Part shown: positions 51,630 through 63,500 of the stretch, one piece after another
Layout of the letters: each line of letters opens with the position of its first letter
How positions within the stretch are numbered: the first letter of the stretch is position 1
Translations under genes and position numbers: made by a program
NCBI RefSeq assembly: GCF_000281045.1
Contig: NW_008246092.1
Coordinates: 243,098 to 307,097, forward strand
Direction of reading: 5' to 3'
DNA length: 64,000 nucleotides
Source: Saprolegnia diclina VS20
Taxonomy: Eukaryota; Oomycota; Saprolegniomycetes; Saprolegniales; Saprolegniaceae
Notes under the pieces: generated by a model
Told to the model about the DNA's origin: nothing
The model's input: the letters and a program-made list of their open reading frames with translations, nothing else
Database searches by the model: none

Positions 51630-54600
51630 ATGAGTGTCGCGCCGCTGCCGGTGCGCCGTCCGAGTGCGCACGAAGGCTCGTCGCTCGAGGCGGGCGCGGC
51701 CCCCGGGCGCATTCTCTACGTCAACGACCGGCCGTCGACGCTCGCGGCCATGGCACGCTACAGCCTCAAGTATCCGAACAACGTCGTCAAGACGTCCAAG
51801 TACTCGGTGCTGACCTTTCTACCCAAGAACCTCTTTGAGCAGTTCCGGCGCGTCGCAAATTTCTACTTTCTCATCATCTCGCTCCTCCAGCTCACGACCA
51901 AGTTGTCGCCGACCAATCCGTACTCGACTGTCGGCCCCCTCATGCTCGTGCTCATCGGTACACCAAGCAGCGCATGTCGATCGTATTTTGAGTAATACGT
52001 AGCCACGATGATCAAGGAGGCGATCGAAGACAAGGCGCGGCACGAGGCCGACCGCCAAGTCAACCACGGACTCACGCTCATTTACGACGCGCCGGTCGGC
52101 TGGCGCAGCATCACGTGGATGCAGCTCCAAGTCGGCGACCTCATCAAGGTCGACAACAACAAGCCATTTCCCGCCGACCTCGTCCTCCTCGCTTCGAGCG
52201 CGGACGATGGTCAAGCCCAGGTGGAGACAACGAGCCTCGACGGCGAAAGCAACCTCAAGGTACAATACTCAGCGATTGCAAATCGTGCTACATTCGTAAG
52301 TAGACGCGGTTCTGCCCCATGGCCAAGGCAGGTCCGCTCCAGCCTACGACGTTTCCGTCCAGCATGACAGGGGAGATCCGATGCGAGGCCCCAAACCGAC
52401 GTCTCTACACGTTCGACGGCGTCTTGCGATTGCGTGCGGGGCCGGACGACGAACAGGACATTTCGCTGACCATTGATAACGTCGTGCTCCGAGGCATGAA
52501 GCTCTGCAACACCGACTACATCATCGGTGTCGTGGTCGCTGCCGGCGCCGACTCGAAGCTCATGCTCAACACCAAAGCGGTACTAGTAGTCTCGTCTTGA
52601 ACAGCGTCTCATTGGTACGCAGACCCCGTCCAAGTTTTCACGTCTCGATGTGATTGCCAACCGCTGTATTCTGCTCGTCTTTTCCGTGCTCTTTGCCGTG
52701 TGCTGCCTCTCGACGGGCCTGAGTCTCATGTGGAGCCACCAGCGCACGCGGCTCAACTCGACAACGTACCTCTCGCTCCTCGTGGCGTCCAGCATCCTGG
52801 ACGTCAACACCTTTGCGAGCACGTTTGTGACTTATCTCATTCTGTACAACAATTTGGTATGTCCTATTGTTAATTGTGCCATCGACAAGGATCTCATCGA
52901 CAGCCTGCTAGGTGCCGATCTCGCTCTACATCAGCTTGGAAGTTGTCAAGTGGTACCAGGCCAAAAAAATGGAAAAGGACCCCGAAATGGTATTGCTTAT
53001 ATGGGGCGATGGTGTACCACAAGCTTTCGACTATCAGCACACGTGTAGATCGACCCGGTCTCGGGTCGCGCCGTCCTCGCGCGCACGTCCAACCTCAACG
53101 AAGACGTGGGGCAGATCAAATACCTCTTCAGCGACAAGACTGGTATGTCCTTGGTGTCCGAAAATCGTCTCGATTCTTAAGATTTGATAGGCACCATCAC
53201 GAAAAATGAGATGGTGCTCAAGGTCATTAGCATCGACAATGTCATTTATGACAGCATTCCTGGGGTACTCCAAATTGCATGTATCGGAAAATGGCGCTAA
53301 CACGCTCGCATAGCCGCCACCCCGGAAGCGGTCGATGAAGGGCATTATCGATGCTAGTTTTGCCAAGCGACCGTCGCAGCCCAACGCCGTCGCTCTCCTC
53401 GCGCGGTGGGTCCCGACTTTCCTGATTCAGTATTCTTATTGCAATATCGCATTAGTGAAAATTCGATGCGGCGCAAGGAAAAGGAAAATGCCGAACGCGT
53501 CGCCGCGCGTCTGCGCATGTTTCAAGCCGACGTGCAGCACTATGACAACCTCGCGTCAATCGGCTCCAACCCCACGTCGGACGTTGCGTGTCAACCCGTA
53601 TGTTTGGGTTTGGAGCTGTCACAATGACATACCCAATTTGTAGTCGTCGGTTGTGCTCGGGGATACGCCGCTCACGAAAGGCGAGCTCACACAGACCTTT
53701 TTCCGGTGCCTCTTGCTCTGCCACACGGCGACGATCGCCCCCGATGACGAGATTCGCGCATCGTCGCCGGACGAGGCGGCGCTCTTGGTGGCCGCGATCG
53801 AGTTCAACTGCCGCTGCCGCCAGCGCTCCATCAACTCGGTCACCATCAAGTACGATCTTATTTTCAAGTGAAACAAGCGCTTACGGAGCGCGTAGCATCT
53901 TTGGCGACGACGAGACGTACGACATTTTAGCGCTCAACGAATTCGACTCGACGCGCAAGTGCATGTCGATCATTGTGCGCCAGACGTCGCCGCGGCCGAC
54001 CAGCGAGGATGACGACGGTGTGTCACGTGATGCGTCTGCATACGTGCTGACAAGAACAGTAGGCATTTGGATGTTTACGAAAGGCGCCGACACCGCCATG
54101 ATGGCGAGTGCCGTGCCATACGGTCAGCAGCTCAAACCGCCGGCCATGGCTTTGCACATTCACTACTTTGCGTCGATGGGGCTGCGGACGCTCGTGTTTG
54201 GGTACATTTGCCGATTACTTATATGCTTCGATATGGACCGTGATTGTTGAATAGGTACAAGCGACTGACTCGCGCCGAGTACAGCTCGTGGTTTGAAGCG
54301 TACACCAAGGCCAAGACGAGCCTCGTGGACCGCGACACAAAGCTCATCGAGTGCGCACGCTGCATGGAGACAGGCGTCACGCTCCTCGGCGCCACGGGCG
54401 TCGAAGATCAGCTCCAAGACGGCGTCACGCACTGCATTCAGACGCTGAGCAACGCGGGGTACAAAGCGAACTCGACTGCTGTGGCTGACGCTCGATAGGA
54501 TCAATATTTGGATGCTCACGGGGGACAAGGACGAGACAGCAATCTCCATAGCCAACTCGTGCGGTCTCCTAACCGATCAGTCGCACTTGGTCGTTGTCAA

Positions 54601-57600
54601 CGAAAAAACCAAAGCCGCGTGTCTCTACCAAATTGCCAACGCCCGCAAAAAGCTGCGCAAAGCCGGTACCTTTGTGGCGGCACGGATCACATCATCGATG
54701 ACGTGATATTCCACGTAGGCATCTGGCACCCGGGGCGCCCGTCACACGACATTGCACTTGTCATCAACGGCGAGGCACTCGAATGCCTCTTGGCGCCAGC
54801 CGACGAGTCGCCCGAGCCTGCACCGACCATGGGGCGATACACGTCAAGCGATGCCCTCGTACCTCCTGAGAGCGGTCGTGGTGGCAATGAGAGCTCGCTA
54901 GACGCCGCACCCGAAGTCCGTGACAAGGACTCCCAACGTCGTATGGGCCAACGCGATGTGTTGCGGTTGCTGAATCTTGAATAGAAATTCGAGCATCGCT
55001 GACGGTCGACGACCCCGCCGAGCTCAGCGTCATGGGCGGTGGCAACGACAGCATCTTTATGCAGCTCGTGACGCAGTGCTGCTCGGTGATTGCCTGCCGC
55101 CTCTCGCCGCTTCAGAAGGCACAGATCGTTGCACTCATCAAGACAAGGTTCGACTACCTATCGGTATTAAAGACACCGATCTCACCGAATGTACAGCAAG
55201 GGTCGGCCCGTCACGATGGCGGTCGGTGACGGCGGCAACGATGTGAGCATGATCCAAGAATCGCACATTGGTGTCGGCATCTACGGACACGAGGGCATGC
55301 AAGCTGTCCGCAGCGCCGACTTTGCGATTGGCCAATTCCGGTTCTTATCGCGTCTGATTCTGGCGCACGGCCGGTGGAACTACCGGCGCGTCTCGATCGT
55401 GATTCTCTTTTCGTTCTACAAGAACATGGCGCTCATCATGACGCTCTTCTGCTACTCGTTTTACAACGGGTACTCGGGTCAGACCATGTACGAGTCATAC
55501 CTGATTGTGGGCTGGAACGTTCTCTACACGCTCTTCCCGATCCTCGTGCTCGGTATCATTTCTTATTTCCAGTGTTGTACTATGTAAAAAATGACAATTA
55601 GGCATCACGGACGAAGACATTAGCTCCGAGACCGTGCTGCTCTATCCGTTCATCTTTCGCAACAACCAGAAAGGCCAAGAGCTCAACATTGAGAAGATGC
55701 GCGTGTGGGTCGTGAACGCACTTTTGCACTCATTTCTGGTGTTTATGCTCGGGACCTATTTTGTGTACAAATTTCGCATTCCACACCGTACGATACTATG
55801 ACGGTAGGTACATTGTCGACGGGTCGTCGCTCCCCAACTCGAGTGTCTTTCTCTACGGCACGGCTGTCTACGGCGTCCTCGTCGTCACCGTGACAATGAA
55901 AGCGGCCATGGTCATGCAGCGCATGCACCGCTGGACGCGCTACCATTACCTCTCGATCATTTCGGGGCCGCTCATTTACTTTTTGTTTGTGCTCTCGTAC
56001 TCGCAGGTACCTTTGGCGATGTGACGACGCATCCTGAACAGAAGCATCGACGTAGGCCTACGTGTGGGTGCCGATTTCCCCGGTCAGCGACTTTTGTGGT
56101 CTCGGTAAAGTGCTTTTTGGCACGGCACAGTTCTGGCTCGTCATCGTGCCCGTCTCGTTTGCGTCGTTGATTGTGGACATTATTGTCATGTATCTCCAGC
56201 GCATGTATTTGCCAACGAACCAAGACATTATCGAAGAAATCGACTGCTGCCTCGACAACAACAGCGCTTGCGAAACCACGGTCCGTTGTTCCAATTGAAA
56301 CAAAAAAATCATTGATATCCGTAGCCCAAAGTGCACACAAGCAGCTCCAAAACGTGGATTTTGGCCAACAACCCGCTCGGCGATTGGACAAAACAGCACG
56401 ACGCGTCATCGACGGAGCACGAAGAGCTGTGCCGGTGCGCAAAGTAGATGGTTGACATCTCATACTATATGTCTTCTTGTCTCTAGACACTTGGTGCGCA
56501 TGGAAAAAGCCATTGCGCGGGAGATCGGCGCCCATCGCAGCGACGACCAGGACAAGGTCATTTCGGCCACGGCGCAGCCCGCGATTCACCCGATCACGCT
56601 CGAGTTTATGGGCGAGGAGAACGAAGAGCTCGAGCACGAGTACAACATCAACTTTTCCCTTCGGTTCGTCGTACAATTTGCGAAAAATCTTATGGTGGGC
56701 ACAGCGAGGCGCGCCGGATTCGAACGCTCATGTCGGTCGTCGTCGTCGCGCTGCCGCCGTATGCATTTGTCGAGTACTATGGCGAAGGCGACGAAAACCT
56801 CTGGCCGTACCGCGTCGCCATGTTCATTGCGGCGCTGGTGTACATTGCCTACACACGCACGTCGTTCTTTCACCGGCACTACCAATACTCGGTATTTTCA
56901 CTGCATTTTGATTGAAAAATTTCATTTAAATTTATTGCTAGGTTGCGGTGCCCTTGGCGATCGCTGGTATTGTGTTTACGCAAGCGATCAAGTACACGGG
57001 GAAATTTGCCGTCACGATCTTCACCATTATTCTCTATTCGGTCGTGCGCGTCAAGTTTGTCATTGCGACGTGGCTGGCGTTCTTCAACTTTTTGTATTTT
57101 TTACTCTCGGGGTACCTCGGCTTGAACCACATTGCAGCGTCGAGTGAGAATTCCGCAATCGACGACACGCTCTTTATGCTCTTCATGGTACTATATATTT
57201 TGAAATCCCCATTTTGAAACACAAAATTCATTGTCTGTGTAGCTCATTCTGATTGGCATGGCGGCGTTTGGCGGCTACAACCTCCAAGCCACGATGCGCC
57301 GGGACTTTTTACAAAACCGTATTTTGCTCTACCAAGAGCGCCGCAGCACAGAAATCCTCAACAACATGTTGCCCGAACACGTGGTCAAGCGCATGCAGTC
57401 GGGCGACACACTCATTTCCGAGGAAGAGAAGGACGTGACGCTCCTCTTCTGCGACATTGCGGACTTTGGCTACCTCTTCAAGCACTACTCACCGACGCAG
57501 GTACATATATGCATATTTCATCGCATCAGCCAATACGACAATATTGCGCTGTAGATGGTGAGCCTCCTCGACCGCATCTATTCGCTCTTCGACCAGCTGT

Positions 57601-60223
57601 GCCTCAAGCACGGCTTGCGCAAAATGGAGACTGTTGGCAAAACGTACTTTGCCTGCGCTGGGCTCCAAGACAGCGAGAAGGGCCGCGAGGCTGCGATCCG
57701 GACCGCGGCCATGGCACACGAAATGATGGTCTACCTACATTCCCAAAACATATGTTTACGAGTGATAGGCGGTCGTGGCCAAGTGCAAGGCCAGCAGCGG
57801 CAACGGCATCCGCATTCGGATCGGCATTCACTCGGGGCGCGTCATTAGCGGGCTCGTGGGCATGAAGAAGCAGCAGTTTTCGCTCTTTGGCGACACAGTC
57901 AACACGGCCTCGCGCATGCAAAGCACAGGAATTACGGGCCACATCCAGCTCTCGCAGGTCGCCCATCTCAACCAGTCGTATGCGGCAACTATGGTGGCAT
58001 TAGATGACATTTGAGAAGATCCGCAGCGACTTTCACTTTGAAGAACGCACGGTGGAAGCCAAGGGCAAAGGTCAAATGAAGACCTTCTTGCTCGGCCGCC
58101 CGACGACCGCACTCGCCGAGCGTGCGTGCCGTGGGCATTGGGACGCGGGCAAGCACGTCGAGTCGCGTCGTGTGAGCATTCCCAATATGCGCGAACCCAC
58201 CGAGTAGGTCCTTTTTGAAATCGGTATAATGCCGTATCACGCCGTTCGGTAGAAGCGCACAGTGTCTGCGAGCGATCGCAACTCGCTGCATCGAGTCGCT
58301 CCAGCGCACGTTCGACTGCGTCCGCGAGCCGCCAAGCGCCGCCAACGAGAGCATTGCGGCCAAGGAGCTCGAGATGAAGTCGCAGATCGACTTGCGCTGG
58401 CTGCATTTCAAGGACGCTGCGTACGAAATAGCCTACCTGCGGGCGATCGTGGTCGAGCACCGCGCGGGGTACTGCTTGCTGATGAAACCTTGTCGAGGTG
58501 CGAGGATCTTGACTAGGACGCGCCGCACGGTACTGGCCCTTGGCGTCTACATACTCTACGCAGTGCTCCGCGACGTCCTCCATGACGCTTACGTGACGAC
58601 GTGCGCGTCGTGCCACAGCTACATGTAGCCACAACGTTATATGAGGTGCACTGATACGGTGTAGGGTTGCGTTTCAATTCGCGCGCGCCGCGGTTGTCGT
58701 GCTCATCGCGTGGTATGAGTACAGCGAGTACCACGCGAAGCGCAAGCTGTCGTCGCTGGTCGTGCCAGACGGCGTCATGCGCGCGTCGCACCGCCAGAAC
58801 CACCGGCTATTGGTCTTATACGTTTTGATCGCGGTCGTCCTCTTCATGCCCAACCTCCTTCGGTAGAGTCTTTGCTTCTTTGTGTGTTTTCGACGTATCG
58901 ATGTAGCTGGATATCGGAGCAAGCGAGCATTCTCTACTCGTACCTCTGCCTCGACATCATCATTGTCATGTTCCTTGCGTCGTTCGGCGGCTCGCTCTTG
59001 TACCCATCCGTGCTGCTCATCAACAGTCTTCTCGTGAGCGGCAGCGGCATTATCTACTTTGTACTACGTTCATCTGGAGGATATACCTCGAACACTATTT
59101 CTAGACGCTGCAGCTCAACTACGAATCGTCCACGATATCGGACGCCGAGAAGCTGCGCATTTACCCACTCGCGATCACGCTCTTTATCGGTCTCTCGAAC
59201 GTCATGGCCCGGCGCGACAACGAGTTTTTCGGACGCCGCAAGTACTGGCTCCAGACGCGCACGCAGCTCGAGACCAAGAAAGCCGACCAAATGCTCTACA
59301 AAATGCTTCCGCAGTCGCTCGTGACGCAGCTCAAGGACGGGGACACGGTCTGCGACCAGCACCATCACGTCCGTGCCATGCATTGGGGTACACTGGGAGC
59401 TTAGAGCACTGAATAGGTGGGGATCCTCTTCTCCGACATCAAAGGGTTTACCTCGATCGCGGCGCGCGCCGACACGGACAAGGTCGTCCACATTCTCGAC
59501 TCGCTCTTCACGGCGTTCGACAAGCTCACCGAGAAGCACGGTCGGTCCTCAAATGATTGTGCAAGTCGGACAGATTGTCTGACATGGGTGCAGGCGTTTT
59601 CAAAGTCCAAACGATTGGGGACGCGTATGTGATCGTGTCGGGCTTGCCGTATGCAGACGTGAGCCTCAATACGGTCTCAACAAATGACCTGAAAGCCCAA
59701 GTGCTGAGCCGGTCGACGTTCGACGACGGGTCGGGCTCCAAAGGCGCGCCCAAGTCTCTGGACACCACGTCGACGCACCTCCGGAACCTCATTCGCATGG
59801 CGAGCGATATGCAAGAGGAGGTCAAGAAGGTGAATGACCCCAACAGCGGCGAGCCGCTCCAGATGCGCATCGGCATTCACCTCGGGAGCATCATTGCCGG
59901 CGTCATTGGCACGTCCACGCTGCGCTACGACATGTGGGGACCCGACGTGCTCACGGGCAATGAGATGGAGACCAACGGAGTGCCCGGGCGCATCCTCGTC
60001 TCCCAGGACGTGCAGCACGAGGTCCGCCCGACACGAGAGCCGCCTCCTCACTACTGTGTTTGTGTAGGCAAGTGTCTGCCCGGATCTGGCCTTTGAGTTC
60101 CACAAGAACATTGATTTTACCAACGCCAACCTCGACACATACCTCGTCGACTACATCTCTGGCGACGCGACGCTCCAAACGCCGTCGACCCCGACCGGGT
60201 CAACGAAAAACACGGCGTTTTAG
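51630..60223 (+). CDS. P4-type ATPase fused to two class III cyclase domains (alveolate-type guanylyl cyclase)
   Basis: About 35 short introns; roughly 2,250-2,350 residues. The N-terminal half is a phospholipid flippase. [13 protein letters not shown] leads; DGES codons are at 52239-52250. PISL is in membrane helix 4 ([13 protein letters not shown]), and DKTGT has its Asp at 53133-53135 with an intron inside the next Gly codon. MLTGDKDET starts at 54512 and GDGGND at 55225-55242. After the ATPase helices come six more membrane segments, then a cyclase domain (57.43-57.97 kb), a further six-segment block (58.5-59.1 kb) and a second cyclase domain (59.42-60.1 kb). Domain 1 has METVGK, plus Asn and Arg of the [11 protein letters not shown] site. 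Domain 2 has both metal Asp residues ([14 protein letters not shown]) but Leu and Glu in place of that Asn and Arg. Together they make one complementary GTP-cyclizing site. Predicted role: membrane cGMP synthesis coupled to lipid flipping or sensing. Confidence 0.88.
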
Positions 60224-60596
60224 CACCGCCCAATCTGCATATCGTATTTAATCTTGTGTTTTCTAGTCTTCATAGTATGACATTATGTTGCTACATGAAC
60301 GTCTAAGCTAATTCGTCTGTACTCCCATTTCGACGTGTCCTTTCAGCGGCGTCGAGCAAAGCGACGTCGCTCAGCGTGCCACGTCAGGCGTGCGAGGGAC
60401 CAGTAGGTCAGCGATAAATATGCATGCCTTTGTGGGAGCGTTTTTTCGACTTTCAGAGAAGACATTACAAACATAGAGGTAAAAATATGCAATTGGGTCG
60501 CGCACCTTTTCCGGATCTGGCCCCGACCAATCACTGGGGTCTGTACATCCGGATACGGCGTTGGCTCGCGATGAATGGTCATCTACAAATTGGGCC
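60224..60596. promoter_or_regulatory. CEBPZ upstream region with CCGGATAC site
   Basis: The 373 bp hold no gene. CCGGATCT at 60511-60518 and CCGGATAC at 60549-60556 lie 41-86 bp before the ATG. TCATCTACAAATT at about 60579-60591 resembles the oomycete initiator/flanking-promoter consensus (TCAYTYYNCAWTTT) with one base missing. Confidence 0.45.
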
Positions 60597-63500
60597 ATGG
60601 GCAACAACAAGAAGGGACCGAAGAAGGCTGCGGGTGGCGCCAAGCCCGCGCCGGCGACGGCCAAGCCTGTCCATGCCAAGAAGCAGGATGCGCCCAAGGG
60701 TAAGCCGCAGCAGAAGCCCGCGCAGCCCAAGGGTCAGCCGCAGCAGAAGCCCGCGCAGCCCAAGGTCCAGCTGCAGCAGAAGTCCGCGCAGCCCAAGGGA
60801 AAGCCGCAGCAGCAGCAGGCCCAGCCCAAGACCCAGCAAAAGACACACGAGAAGAAGGGTGCTGCGACGCCGAACGCAAAGCAGGGCAAGCCAACGACGC
60901 CAGTGGCCAAGTCGGGCAAGAAGGGTCACATTGTTGTCGAGGCCGAAGACACGCAGCCCAACGAAAAGCTCGCGCTCATGCTCAAGAACATGAAGGACAA
61001 CGCCGTCGCGTGGCACTTGGCCGTCAAGCCGCTCTCGGCGAGCAAGGCGACAAACGATGCGCCCAAGTACAAGCCCAACGACCCGATTGTTGAGGAGAAG
61101 CGCAAGCTGGCCGAGTCGGCCATGGAGAAGCAGCTTAAGGCGCTCGAGTCCAAGGGCAGCCTCTCGAGCGACGACAAGTACCTCAAGACGATGATGAAGT
61201 CCGGTACGTTGGCCGATCGAATCGCTGCAACGACGCTCGCGATCCAGGGGTCGCCGATCCACAACCTCCAGCGCCTCAGCCAGCTCGTGACGATGGCTAA
61301 GAACAAGTCGCGCCGCGAGTCGCAAATGGCCGTCGACTCGCTCAAGGATCTCTTCCTCAACAACCTCCTTCCCGACCGTAAGCTCCATTTCTTCCACCAG
61401 CAGCCGCTGCACCGCCCCGACGCGACCTTGCAGCACCTCGTCATCTGGTACTTTGAGCACTGCATCAAGATGGCCTTCTCGCAGCTCATCGCGGTGCTCT
61501 CCAACGGCATGAACGACGCCATCGACGTGCACAAGCGCGCGTGCATCCGCGCCGTCGTTGCGCTCCTCACGGAAAAGCCCGAGCAAGAAGCGGTCTTGCT
61601 CTCGATGCTGGTCAACAAGCTCGGCGATCCCGAGCGCAAGATCGCGGCCTACGTGCTGCACCAGCTCCAGGAGCTGCTCAAGACGCACCCGGTCATGAAG
61701 CGCGTTGTCGTGTCGGACGTCGAGCGGCTCTTGACGCGCACCAAGGTCACGGAGCGCACCAAGTACAACGCCGTGCTCTTCTTGAACCAGCTGTATCTGG
61801 ACGCCAAGGACAAGACGCTGGCGACCCACCTCATTAAGGTCTACTTTGGCCTCTTCACAAAGGAAGTTCACCGCACGGGCTCGGAAGCCGGTGGTCTCGA
61901 GCGCAAGCTCCTCTCGGCGCTGCTTGTCGGCGTCAACCGCTCGTTCCCGTACGCCGAGTGCACGTCGGCGGACTTTCAGTCGGAGATCGACACCATGTTC
62001 CGCGTGGTCCACACGGTACGAGACAATAGTGTCCATTGTTGCGTGTATTTAGCCTCGACCTAGGCGCATTTTAGCACAAGTGTCCAAGCGCTCATGCTGC
62101 TCTTCCAAGTCATGAACTCGACCACCTCGGTGCCCGACCGCTTCTACACGGCCTTGTACGCCAAGCTCTTGGACCCCAAGGTACAATTGGTTGCGCTGGA
62201 GTCTATGGTGGCTAATCGCACGCGACGCGTAGCTCCCGACGACCTCCAAGCACACCATGTTTTTGAACGTCCTCTTCCGCGCCATGAAGTCGGACGTCTC
62301 GCCCGCGCGCGTCAATGCGATGATCAAGCGCCTCCTGCAAGTCGCCTATACGATGGCGCCGGCCTTTGCGTGTGCTTCGCTCTACCTCGTGTCGCAGGTC
62401 ATGGCCCACAACCCGCGCCTCCGCGGTATGATCGACATGGCCGAAGCCAGCGATGTGAGCGTCGTGGCCACCGACGCGACGGCCGTCACCAAGGCTACCA
62501 ATGACGACGATGACGAAGATGAAGAGACGGCGTCGGACGACAATGCGACTGAAAATGTCCCAGAAGAAGACGACGCCGACTTGGCGGCGGAGCGGGATCG
62601 CTCGGCGGCACTGCTTGCGGCCATGGGGCTCGACGGCGCGGACGCGGTGGCCGAGCGCCAGACCACGTCGCAGGCCGGTGTCGCGACGGTGTACGACGCC
62701 AAGAAGCGCAACCCGTTGTACGCCGGCGCGGACAATGCGTGCCTCTGGGAGCTGCAGCCGTTCCTGCAGCACTACCACCCGTCCGTGGCCACGTTTGCCA
62801 AGCAGCTGCTCGAGGGCCAGATCGTCTACAGCGGCGACCCGCTCACGGACTTCACGCTCACAACCTTCTTTGACAAGTTTGTCAACAAGAAGCCCAAGGC
62901 CAAAGACGGGCCGCACCAGCGTGGCGTCGCGGCGCCGTCGGCGATGGCCAGCATGTACTCGGAGGAGTTCCAAAACCAAGACGAAGGTACGCCATGTCGA
63001 TGCAACGACAGAGTTCCTGATGATGACATCGTAGGCAACGTCGAGGAGAGCGACAAGTTCTTCTACACGTTCTTCAAGGAGCGTCTCAAGCGCAAGCCCA
63101 AGAAGGCCAAGAAGGAGCCCAAGGACGGCGACGCCTCGGAAGACGACGAGTACGAGGCCTTTGCCACGCAGTTGGCCGAGGGGCTTATGCAAGACAACGA
63201 TGACGAAGACGTCGACATGGACGACTGGAGCGGGCCGGAGGACAGCGAGGACGACGAGGACGCGGAGGACGCGGACCCGAGCGAGCTCCTCGCGAATGAG
63301 TTCCCCGACTCGGACTCGGACGCGTCGGAAGTTGATGACGAAGAGCTGCTCATGACCAACGGCCACTCGCTCGCCGACGACGCCGACGACTTTATGGACG
63401 ACGACGATGACGAGGACGATGACGAGGACGATGACATGGACGATGACGAGGATGACGAGGATGACGAGGATGACATGGTATTCCAAGAAGACAAGACGGC

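Follow-up and report, generated by a model that had tools for sequence, protein, structure and literature searches.

A P4-ATPase fused to a twin-cassette guanylyl cyclase in the oomycete Saprolegnia diclina

Introduction

Guanylyl cyclases that carry a P4-ATPase in the same polypeptide have been described in apicomplexan parasites and ciliates. The Toxoplasma enzyme TgATPaseP-GC (TgGC) and Plasmodium GCalpha share the order ATPase, membrane cassette, cyclase domain GC1, membrane cassette, cyclase domain GC2; the ciliate guanylyl cyclases have the same architecture, and those of Paramecium and Tetrahymena, with their P-type ATPase domain, were reportedly described by Linder et al. in 1999 (cited in PMC6592433). 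Here we describe a gene of this design from the oomycete Saprolegnia diclina VS20, located in a window of 64,000 nucleotides (contig NW_008246092.1, positions 243,098 to 307,097; G000:C25:243098-307097 in our numbering of the genome) that is the whole stretch of DNA analysed. The architecture has been called "alveolate-specific" (PMC6592433) and unique to apicomplexans and ciliates (PMC7858053). Our comparisons confirm, at the level of sequence, the observation of one fusion gene made in a first-pass annotation of the window, and the interpretation placed on it is supported.

Results

One gene spans the ATPase and both cyclase domains

The gene lies on the + strand at 51630-60223, from an ATG at 51630 to a TAG ending at 60223, and its 36 exons encode 2309 amino acids (aa); all 35 introns are GT..AG, with lengths of 40-59 nt, and the final model has no internal stop. 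In the initial model, GT..AG introns were placed manually across the three forward frames, which gave a single open frame. Orthologues and a spliced alignment then led us to add the in-frame introns 54018-54062 and 58469-58516 and to reposition two linker introns at their borders. That alignment used the Achlya protein P0001 as its sole guide and none of the hand-built exons. Its 35 exons have the same limits as those of the final model, but intron 54018-54062 (45 nt) was read through, and the alignment stops 9 nt short of the final model's 3' end. At the linker it is not an independent check, because the final borders there followed it.

The preliminary product of 2344 aa matched Saprolegnia parasitica SPRG_01963 at 93% identity across 78% of the query; across 99% of the query it was 82% identical to an Achlya hypogyna protein and 75% identical to one from Thraustotheca clavata. 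The existence of proteins 93% and 82% identical argues that the gene is not a chance reading, and these closest orthologues bear out the oomycete origin suspected at first. The region of 56.2-57.3 kb, flagged beforehand as risky, is free of stops once introns 56281-56324, 56435-56486, 56664-56704, 56892-56941 and 57188-57242 are removed. An apparent fusion could also arise from two neighbouring genes or a false assembly join, and our model was built from genomic DNA and orthologues alone; however, the reading frame is unbroken across the ATPase-cyclase linker, the same fusion is found in separate assemblies of ten oomycete genera, and further fusions occur among proteins of other protists with transcriptome-style names, such as P0061 and P0077. 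A false join is unlikely given these orthologues, and we regard this explanation as scarcely credible. The features of the gene are as follows.

51630..60223, +, entire coding region of the P4-ATPase / twin-cassette guanylyl cyclase fusion (36 exons, 2309 aa; orthologues 82-93% identical)
51708..56214, +, P4-ATPase part, aa 27-1225, exons 1-20 (profile matches and motifs)
52239..52253, +, actuator motif DGES(N) (pattern match)
52915..52926, +, PISL motif of M4, lipid type (pattern match)
53133..53195, +, DKTGT phosphorylation motif, split by intron 53143-53190 (pattern match)
54518..54538, +, TGDKDET (pattern match)
55225..55242, +, GDGGND hinge (pattern match)
56215..56711, +, ATPase-cyclase linker, aa 1226-1345, frame continuous over three introns (gene model)
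56712..57296, +, membrane cassette 1 (hydropathy profile; number of helices provisional)
57336..58108, +, cyclase domain GC1, aa 1519-1729 (profile match, residue alignment)
57624..57644, +, guanine-type Glu of GC1 in METVGKT (residue alignment)
57877..57915, +, Asn/Arg of GC1 in a 13-residue motif (residue alignment)
58521..59116, +, membrane cassette 2 (hydropathy; model of the C6 paralogue)
59276..60154, +, cyclase domain GC2, aa 2044-2287 (profile match, residue alignment)
59426..59449, +, metal Asp of GC2 in LFSDIKGF (residue alignment)
59611..59628, +, metal Asp of GC2 in TIGDAY (residue alignment)

The N-terminal part had been taken for an apparently complete P4-ATPase, and all the motifs named for it are in place: the window protein keeps six of the six tested (DGES, PISL, DKTGT, KGAD, TGDK and GDGGND), the lipid-type meaning of PISL being taken from PMC7858053. 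In the genome profile search the C-terminal family PF16212 (PhoLip_ATPase_C) matches in pieces at 55306-56018 of the window (C25:298403-299115). The Achlya orthologue contains both the N- and the C-terminal P4-ATPase Pfam families, and its best relatives in the PDB are DRS2 and other phospholipid-transporting ATPases.

The catalytic residues are split between GC1 and GC2 in reverse order

The prediction of two membrane blocks, each leading to a class III cyclase domain, agrees with the two hydropathy cassettes and with matches to PF00211 at both cyclase sites in a six-frame search, a single reading frame spanning both. The catalytic residue sets are DKESNR in GC1 and DDQDLE in GC2. GC1 thus has Lys in place of the second metal Asp, while GC2 has lost the transition-state Asn and Arg, so that the base and transition-state residues lie in GC1 and the metals in GC2. 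The Toxoplasma and Plasmodium enzymes have the same reversed split and a guanine-type Glu in GC1, and the GC1 set is identical to that of the Blepharisma and Tetrahymena rows; at the base positions the window protein has S and Q, against A and C in apicomplexans. The mammalian transmembrane adenylyl cyclases AC5, AC8 and AC9 likewise have twin cassettes and form a pseudo-heterodimer; the window protein differs from them in its reversed halves, in Glu rather than Lys at the base position and in its N-terminal ATPase. In a predicted model of the C6 paralogue (see below), the matching cassette 2 has six long helices folded like the membrane bundle of adenylyl cyclase 5.

Assignment to the transmembrane adenylyl cyclases was considered and rejected, because that class should carry a Lys/Asp adenine pair and have its metals in the first domain, and GC1 has Glu/Ser with the full metal pair in GC2. 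The alternative that the cyclase makes cAMP, or nothing, takes its strength from the Ser at the second base position, the metal Asp missing from GC1 and the Asn and Arg missing from GC2. These losses are complementary between the two domains, the guanine-type Glu is conserved in 141 of 142 paired-cyclase proteins, and cyclic GMP (cGMP) depends on the relatives of the protein in Toxoplasma and Plasmodium; we therefore think this alternative very unlikely.

Fusions occur across the oomycetes and in other protists

A first homologue search gave 539 matches, and the best 120 were named. Among these, oomycete homologues come from ten genera: Saprolegnia, Achlya, Thraustotheca, Aphanomyces, Lagenidium, Phytophthora, Nothophytophthora, Pythium, Globisporangium and Peronospora. 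The same 120 include Cafeteria roenbergensis (Bicosoecida), Diacronema lutheri (Haptophyta), Vitrella, Perkinsus and dinoflagellates, and these non-oomycete homologues too combine the ATPase and cyclase Pfam families in a single chain. Both families were found again on rescanning the Achlya, Cafeteria and Diacronema proteins; the Cafeteria protein is encoded on a contig of 222 kb and that of Diacronema on one of 562 kb. A second search (66 matches) added apicomplexans, Chromera and ciliates. A search from the haptophyte protein, in which the candidates were partly scored, returned 13 matches and did not widen the named range, and the haptophyte occurrence is one named genome. The sequence databases already hold such proteins under automatic names, for example phospholipid-transporting ATPase or Guanylate cyclase domain-containing protein.

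In the set of 142 paired-cyclase proteins, which was collected with fusions as queries and is biased towards them, the first cyclase is preceded by at least 900 aa in 134; the other eight include short models and others in which just the cyclase family was matched, for example P0152. Several entries have features of their own. Some Phytophthora orthologues (P0038-P0041) bear ankyrin families, either a real addition or a gene-model run-on. P0095 and P0109 have ATPase and cyclase families with the first cyclase match near residue 300, so that either the order of parts may differ or the domain calling may have slipped. P0145 and P0152, labelled guanylate cyclase alpha-like of the bee Hylaeus volcanicus, fall among apicomplexan sequences and perhaps represent a parasite in an insect assembly.

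Motif conservation was counted by plain pattern matching, with any altered letter scored as a loss, in groups formed by hand from the names of the best 120 of the 539 first matches and the 66 of the second search; P0056, whose printed name is incomplete, was assigned to the oomycetes. All six ATPase motifs are kept in 31/45 oomycete, 3/3 chromerid, 1/1 haptophyte and 2/5 dinoflagellate or perkinsid proteins, and in 0/1 bicosoecid, 0/24 apicomplexan and 0/3 ciliate proteins. Some of the 14 oomycete exceptions are visibly incomplete, such as P0003, whose N-terminal part is missing; in others the change may be genuine, as in P0050 and P0052, which lack DGE[TS] only. The intact window ATPase thus differs from the eroded apicomplexan ones, and the ciliate ATPases are likewise more eroded; the window protein is also shorter than the Toxoplasma enzyme, at 2309 as against 4367 aa.

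The erosion in these relatives is what would be expected if the ATPase were a lipid sensor that does not pump and whose change of shape gates the cyclase. We consider this quite unlikely for the Saprolegnia protein, since it retains every motif tested and most oomycete proteins do the same. A lost motif does not prove lost activity in any case, because the Plasmodium ATPase has been argued to work on the basis of 47/56 conserved residues and genetics (PMC7858053).

Paralogues and candidate partner genes in the same genome

Searches of the genome (54.15 Mb, 169 contigs) identified two further fusions, at G000:C1:1781691-1788509 (2096 aa, 12 exons) and G000:C6:226799-233495 (2101 aa, 8 exons). 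Both were modelled with S. diclina proteins as guides and are free of stops; in the pieces found by tblastn they are 84% and 88% identical to S. diclina proteins, and C6 is 80% identical to an S. parasitica protein. Identity between the paralogues and the window protein is 39-42% for the ATPase and 50-60% for the cyclases, and all three Saprolegnia fusions retain the six ATPase motifs. Intron number differs three- to fivefold, with 35 in the window gene, 11 in the C1 paralogue and 7 in that on C6.

A fourth locus, G000:C5:746322-749422 (L036), encodes a twin-cassette cyclase with the same reversed residue split and no ATPase; the genome profile search found no match to the P4-ATPase C-terminal family on contig C5. 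The genome therefore holds three ATPase-cyclase fusions and one ATPase-less cousin, which is a candidate for the state before fusion. PMC6592433 also mentions a Dictyostelium twin-cassette cyclase without an ATPase. Two stand-alone P4-ATPase genes in divergent orientation, at G000:C1:1210189-1210788 (-) and 1217771-1218352 (+), branch beside the fusion ATPases.

As in Toxoplasma and Plasmodium, genes for a cGMP-dependent protein kinase (PKG), phosphodiesterases and CDC50 accompany the fusion. We found an apparent tandem pair of CDC50 genes at G000:C19:147951-150978, 27 phosphodiesterase-family matches spread over 12 contigs, and a PKG-like kinase frame (L037:951-3305, -) with three domains that bind cyclic nucleotide monophosphates. 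The four best PDB matches of this kinase are named cGMP-dependent protein kinase and outscore the human-type kinase 1 entry; we take these four to be the Plasmodium enzymes.

Downstream of the fusion gene, the frame at 60483-62063 (+) has no Pfam match and, as far as we can judge, resembles the start of a Noc1/CEBPZ-type protein. In the Aphanomyces astaci models P0010 and P0011 the fusion is run together with a CBF (PF03914) domain, which, with the Noc1/CEBPZ-like frame here, would fit a conserved gene order.

Oomycete and alveolate fusions form separate groups

For the trees, 36 fusion proteins were hand-picked from the 142 for taxon spread, and the unnamed P0067, P0077 and P0083 were counted as alveolate by their position in the ATPase tree. 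The ATPase tree (35 fusion rows, Tetrahymena omitted, and 17 stand-alone rows) and the single-domain cyclase tree were quick searches with support from the Shimodaira-Hasegawa-like approximate likelihood ratio test only; the joint GC1+GC2 tree was a careful search. In the single-domain tree the 36 GC1 rows form one clade (98) and the 36 GC2 rows another (87), with the C5 cyclase domains outside both on long branches, and the trees fit a single origin of the paired cyclases. In the ATPase tree the alveolate fusions group together (99), as do the oomycetes with Cafeteria and two metagenome proteins (99). The approximately unbiased (AU) test, run on 33 fusion rows with Blepharisma_2 and Blabericola dropped, did not reject all fusion ATPases as one clade (p-AU 0.409).

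The window protein does not fall inside the alveolate clade: in both the ATPase and the joint cyclase trees the alveolate rows branch off without the oomycetes, and it lies in a clade separate from the apicomplexan enzymes. The comparison of domain phylogenies with alveolates proposed at the outset thus separates the two sets of fusions. These trees bear on a gene transfer from an alveolate to the oomycete ancestor, which would be a natural thought given that PMC6592433 and PMC7858053 described the design in alveolates and there only. The alveolate fusions are nevertheless set off from all other rows by a single branch, both in the ATPase tree without two long rows (100) and in the joint cyclase tree (92/94), and the oomycete fusions stand together in the joint tree (100/99) and with the bicosoecid in the ATPase tree. 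A loan from alveolates is unlikely because GC1 and GC2 each form one clade and the alveolate fusions lie apart from the oomycete ones; we judge it highly improbable. The label "alveolate-type" given in the first-pass annotation therefore refers to the design rather than to a loan, since the alveolates have a clade of their own. Nor is the fusion peculiar to one genome, since ten oomycete genera carry it and S. diclina has three copies. The haptophyte, the bicosoecid and others lie at the open base of the joint tree, and a transfer between haptophytes and stramenopiles may have occurred.

Discussion

We propose, as the likely explanation of the whole, that the fusion is a lipid-flipping ATPase that sets the output of a pseudo-heterodimeric guanylyl cyclase, inherited from before the oomycete-alveolate split. 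The N-terminal P4-ATPase, probably with a CDC50 subunit, would bind and flip phospholipid through an aspartyl-phosphate cycle. The C-terminal half would be a membrane guanylyl cyclase with the build of a mammalian transmembrane adenylyl cyclase and its halves in reverse catalytic order; GC1 and GC2 would form one pseudo-heterodimer with a single active site, to which GC1 would contribute the residues for base recognition and the transition state and GC2 the pair of metals. Whether the ATPase has lipid or CDC50 bound or is phosphorylated would determine cyclase output and turn lipid composition into cGMP, a signal that the PKG-like kinase would read and phosphodiesterases would terminate. We infer the flipping, the conversion of GTP to cGMP and their coupling, together with the membrane, the lipid and the binding of CDC50; enzyme activity and ATPase-cyclase coupling are carried over by analogy from work on the parasites, whose relay from lipid state through the ATPase and cGMP to PKG would run here too.

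Work on Plasmodium found that the Asp phosphorylated in the ATPase could not be replaced and that a cGMP analogue rescued the growth of GCalpha-null parasites (PMC7858053); together these results place the cyclase downstream of the ATPase. Optimal cGMP in Plasmodium also requires CDC50B, which binds GCalpha. The Toxoplasma complex includes CDC50.1 and UGO, and on depletion of CDC50.1 the cyclase was mislocalised and there was then no response to phosphatidic acid (PMC9600588). The Plasmodium genetics, and the long N-terminal part that precedes the first cyclase in nearly all of the biased protein set, speak against the alternative in which the halves are linked yet independent, a housekeeping flippase tethering the cyclase to the membrane without passing information. 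That alternative would explain why the three Saprolegnia fusions keep all six motifs, as a working pump should, and the C5 cyclase implies that the cyclase fold does not need the ATPase; we hold it to be unlikely.

Several points weigh against our proposal. The protein is known here from its sequence alone, and GC2 is poorly predicted in parts of the C6 model. Animal guanylyl cyclases have Cys at base position 2, where GC1 has Ser. No single branch of the ATPase tree sets the fusions apart, a Bigelowiella P4-ATPase and the two stand-alone P4-ATPases of Saprolegnia adjoining them, and Cafeteria is not joined to the oomycetes in the cyclase trees, lying apart in the GC1 part and at the open base of the joint tree, so that inheritance within the stramenopiles rests on the ATPase tree. 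Attempts to obtain activity from recombinant Toxoplasma GC1, GC2 and GC1+GC2 failed (PMC6592433), and a study cited in PMC5322657 found cAMP and cGMP levels steady during zoosporogenesis.

The link to zoospores suggested at first survives as a circumstantial one. Two Peronospora proteins were found, from P. effusa and P. destructor; both keep all tested ATPase motifs, and their cyclase residues are intact, by alignment in P. effusa and by motif in P. destructor. To our knowledge Peronospora makes no zoospores, so a role confined to zoospores is not supported and the fusion protein probably has a further function. In Phytophthora infestans, the expression of almost every cyclic-nucleotide gene examined is concentrated in sporangia and zoospores (PMC5322657). 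The Phytophthora zoospore-membrane cyclase PPTG_08439 could not be matched to the fusion family, its architecture not being stated (PMC12223298). The bicosoecid stramenopile Halocafeteria seosinensis has about ten membrane guanylyl cyclases, each with a pair of class III domains and with residues of the guanine type, and two of them are salt-induced; compared by description, no ATPase part is named for them and the C-terminal domain is taken as non-catalytic (PMC5447177). Given the split active site seen here, and again by description, that domain may be the metal-binding half.

In open-licence full texts (subscription papers and preprints lying outside the search) we found no report of a stramenopile or haptophyte fusion, and no paper linking a P4-ATPase and cyclase to oomycetes, stramenopiles or dinoflagellates. 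The predicted oomycete, bicosoecid and haptophyte fusions contradict the alveolate-only claims of PMC6592433 and PMC7858053. Judged from these homologues, ours is a known design with a strong extension of its range and probably a much greater age than thought; it looks old and inherited because relatives occur across the water moulds and further afield. The simplest reading of the trees would be one pairing of cyclases and one fusion, both predating the oomycete-alveolate split, followed by inheritance rather than borrowing. To a fuller history we give about an even chance: a single fusion before stramenopiles and alveolates parted, perhaps before the haptophytes, would have arisen from an ATPase-less cyclase like that on C5, beginning as a working pump that was eroded to a gate in apicomplexans and ciliates, with the oomycetes, in which it still looks like a working pump, keeping the fuller version.

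If this is true, the egress switch of malaria parasites and Toxoplasma would be a specialised form of an old lipid-to-cGMP relay. Greater age of the fusion would open that cGMP switch to study in organisms with an intact pump, and would make the role of the ATPase, whether to flip, to sense or to act as a chaperone, testable by comparing intact and eroded versions of one protein. For the oomycetes, the fusion is a possible origin of the cGMP that would act on the PKG kinases of the Phytophthora infestans kinome (PMC3019232).

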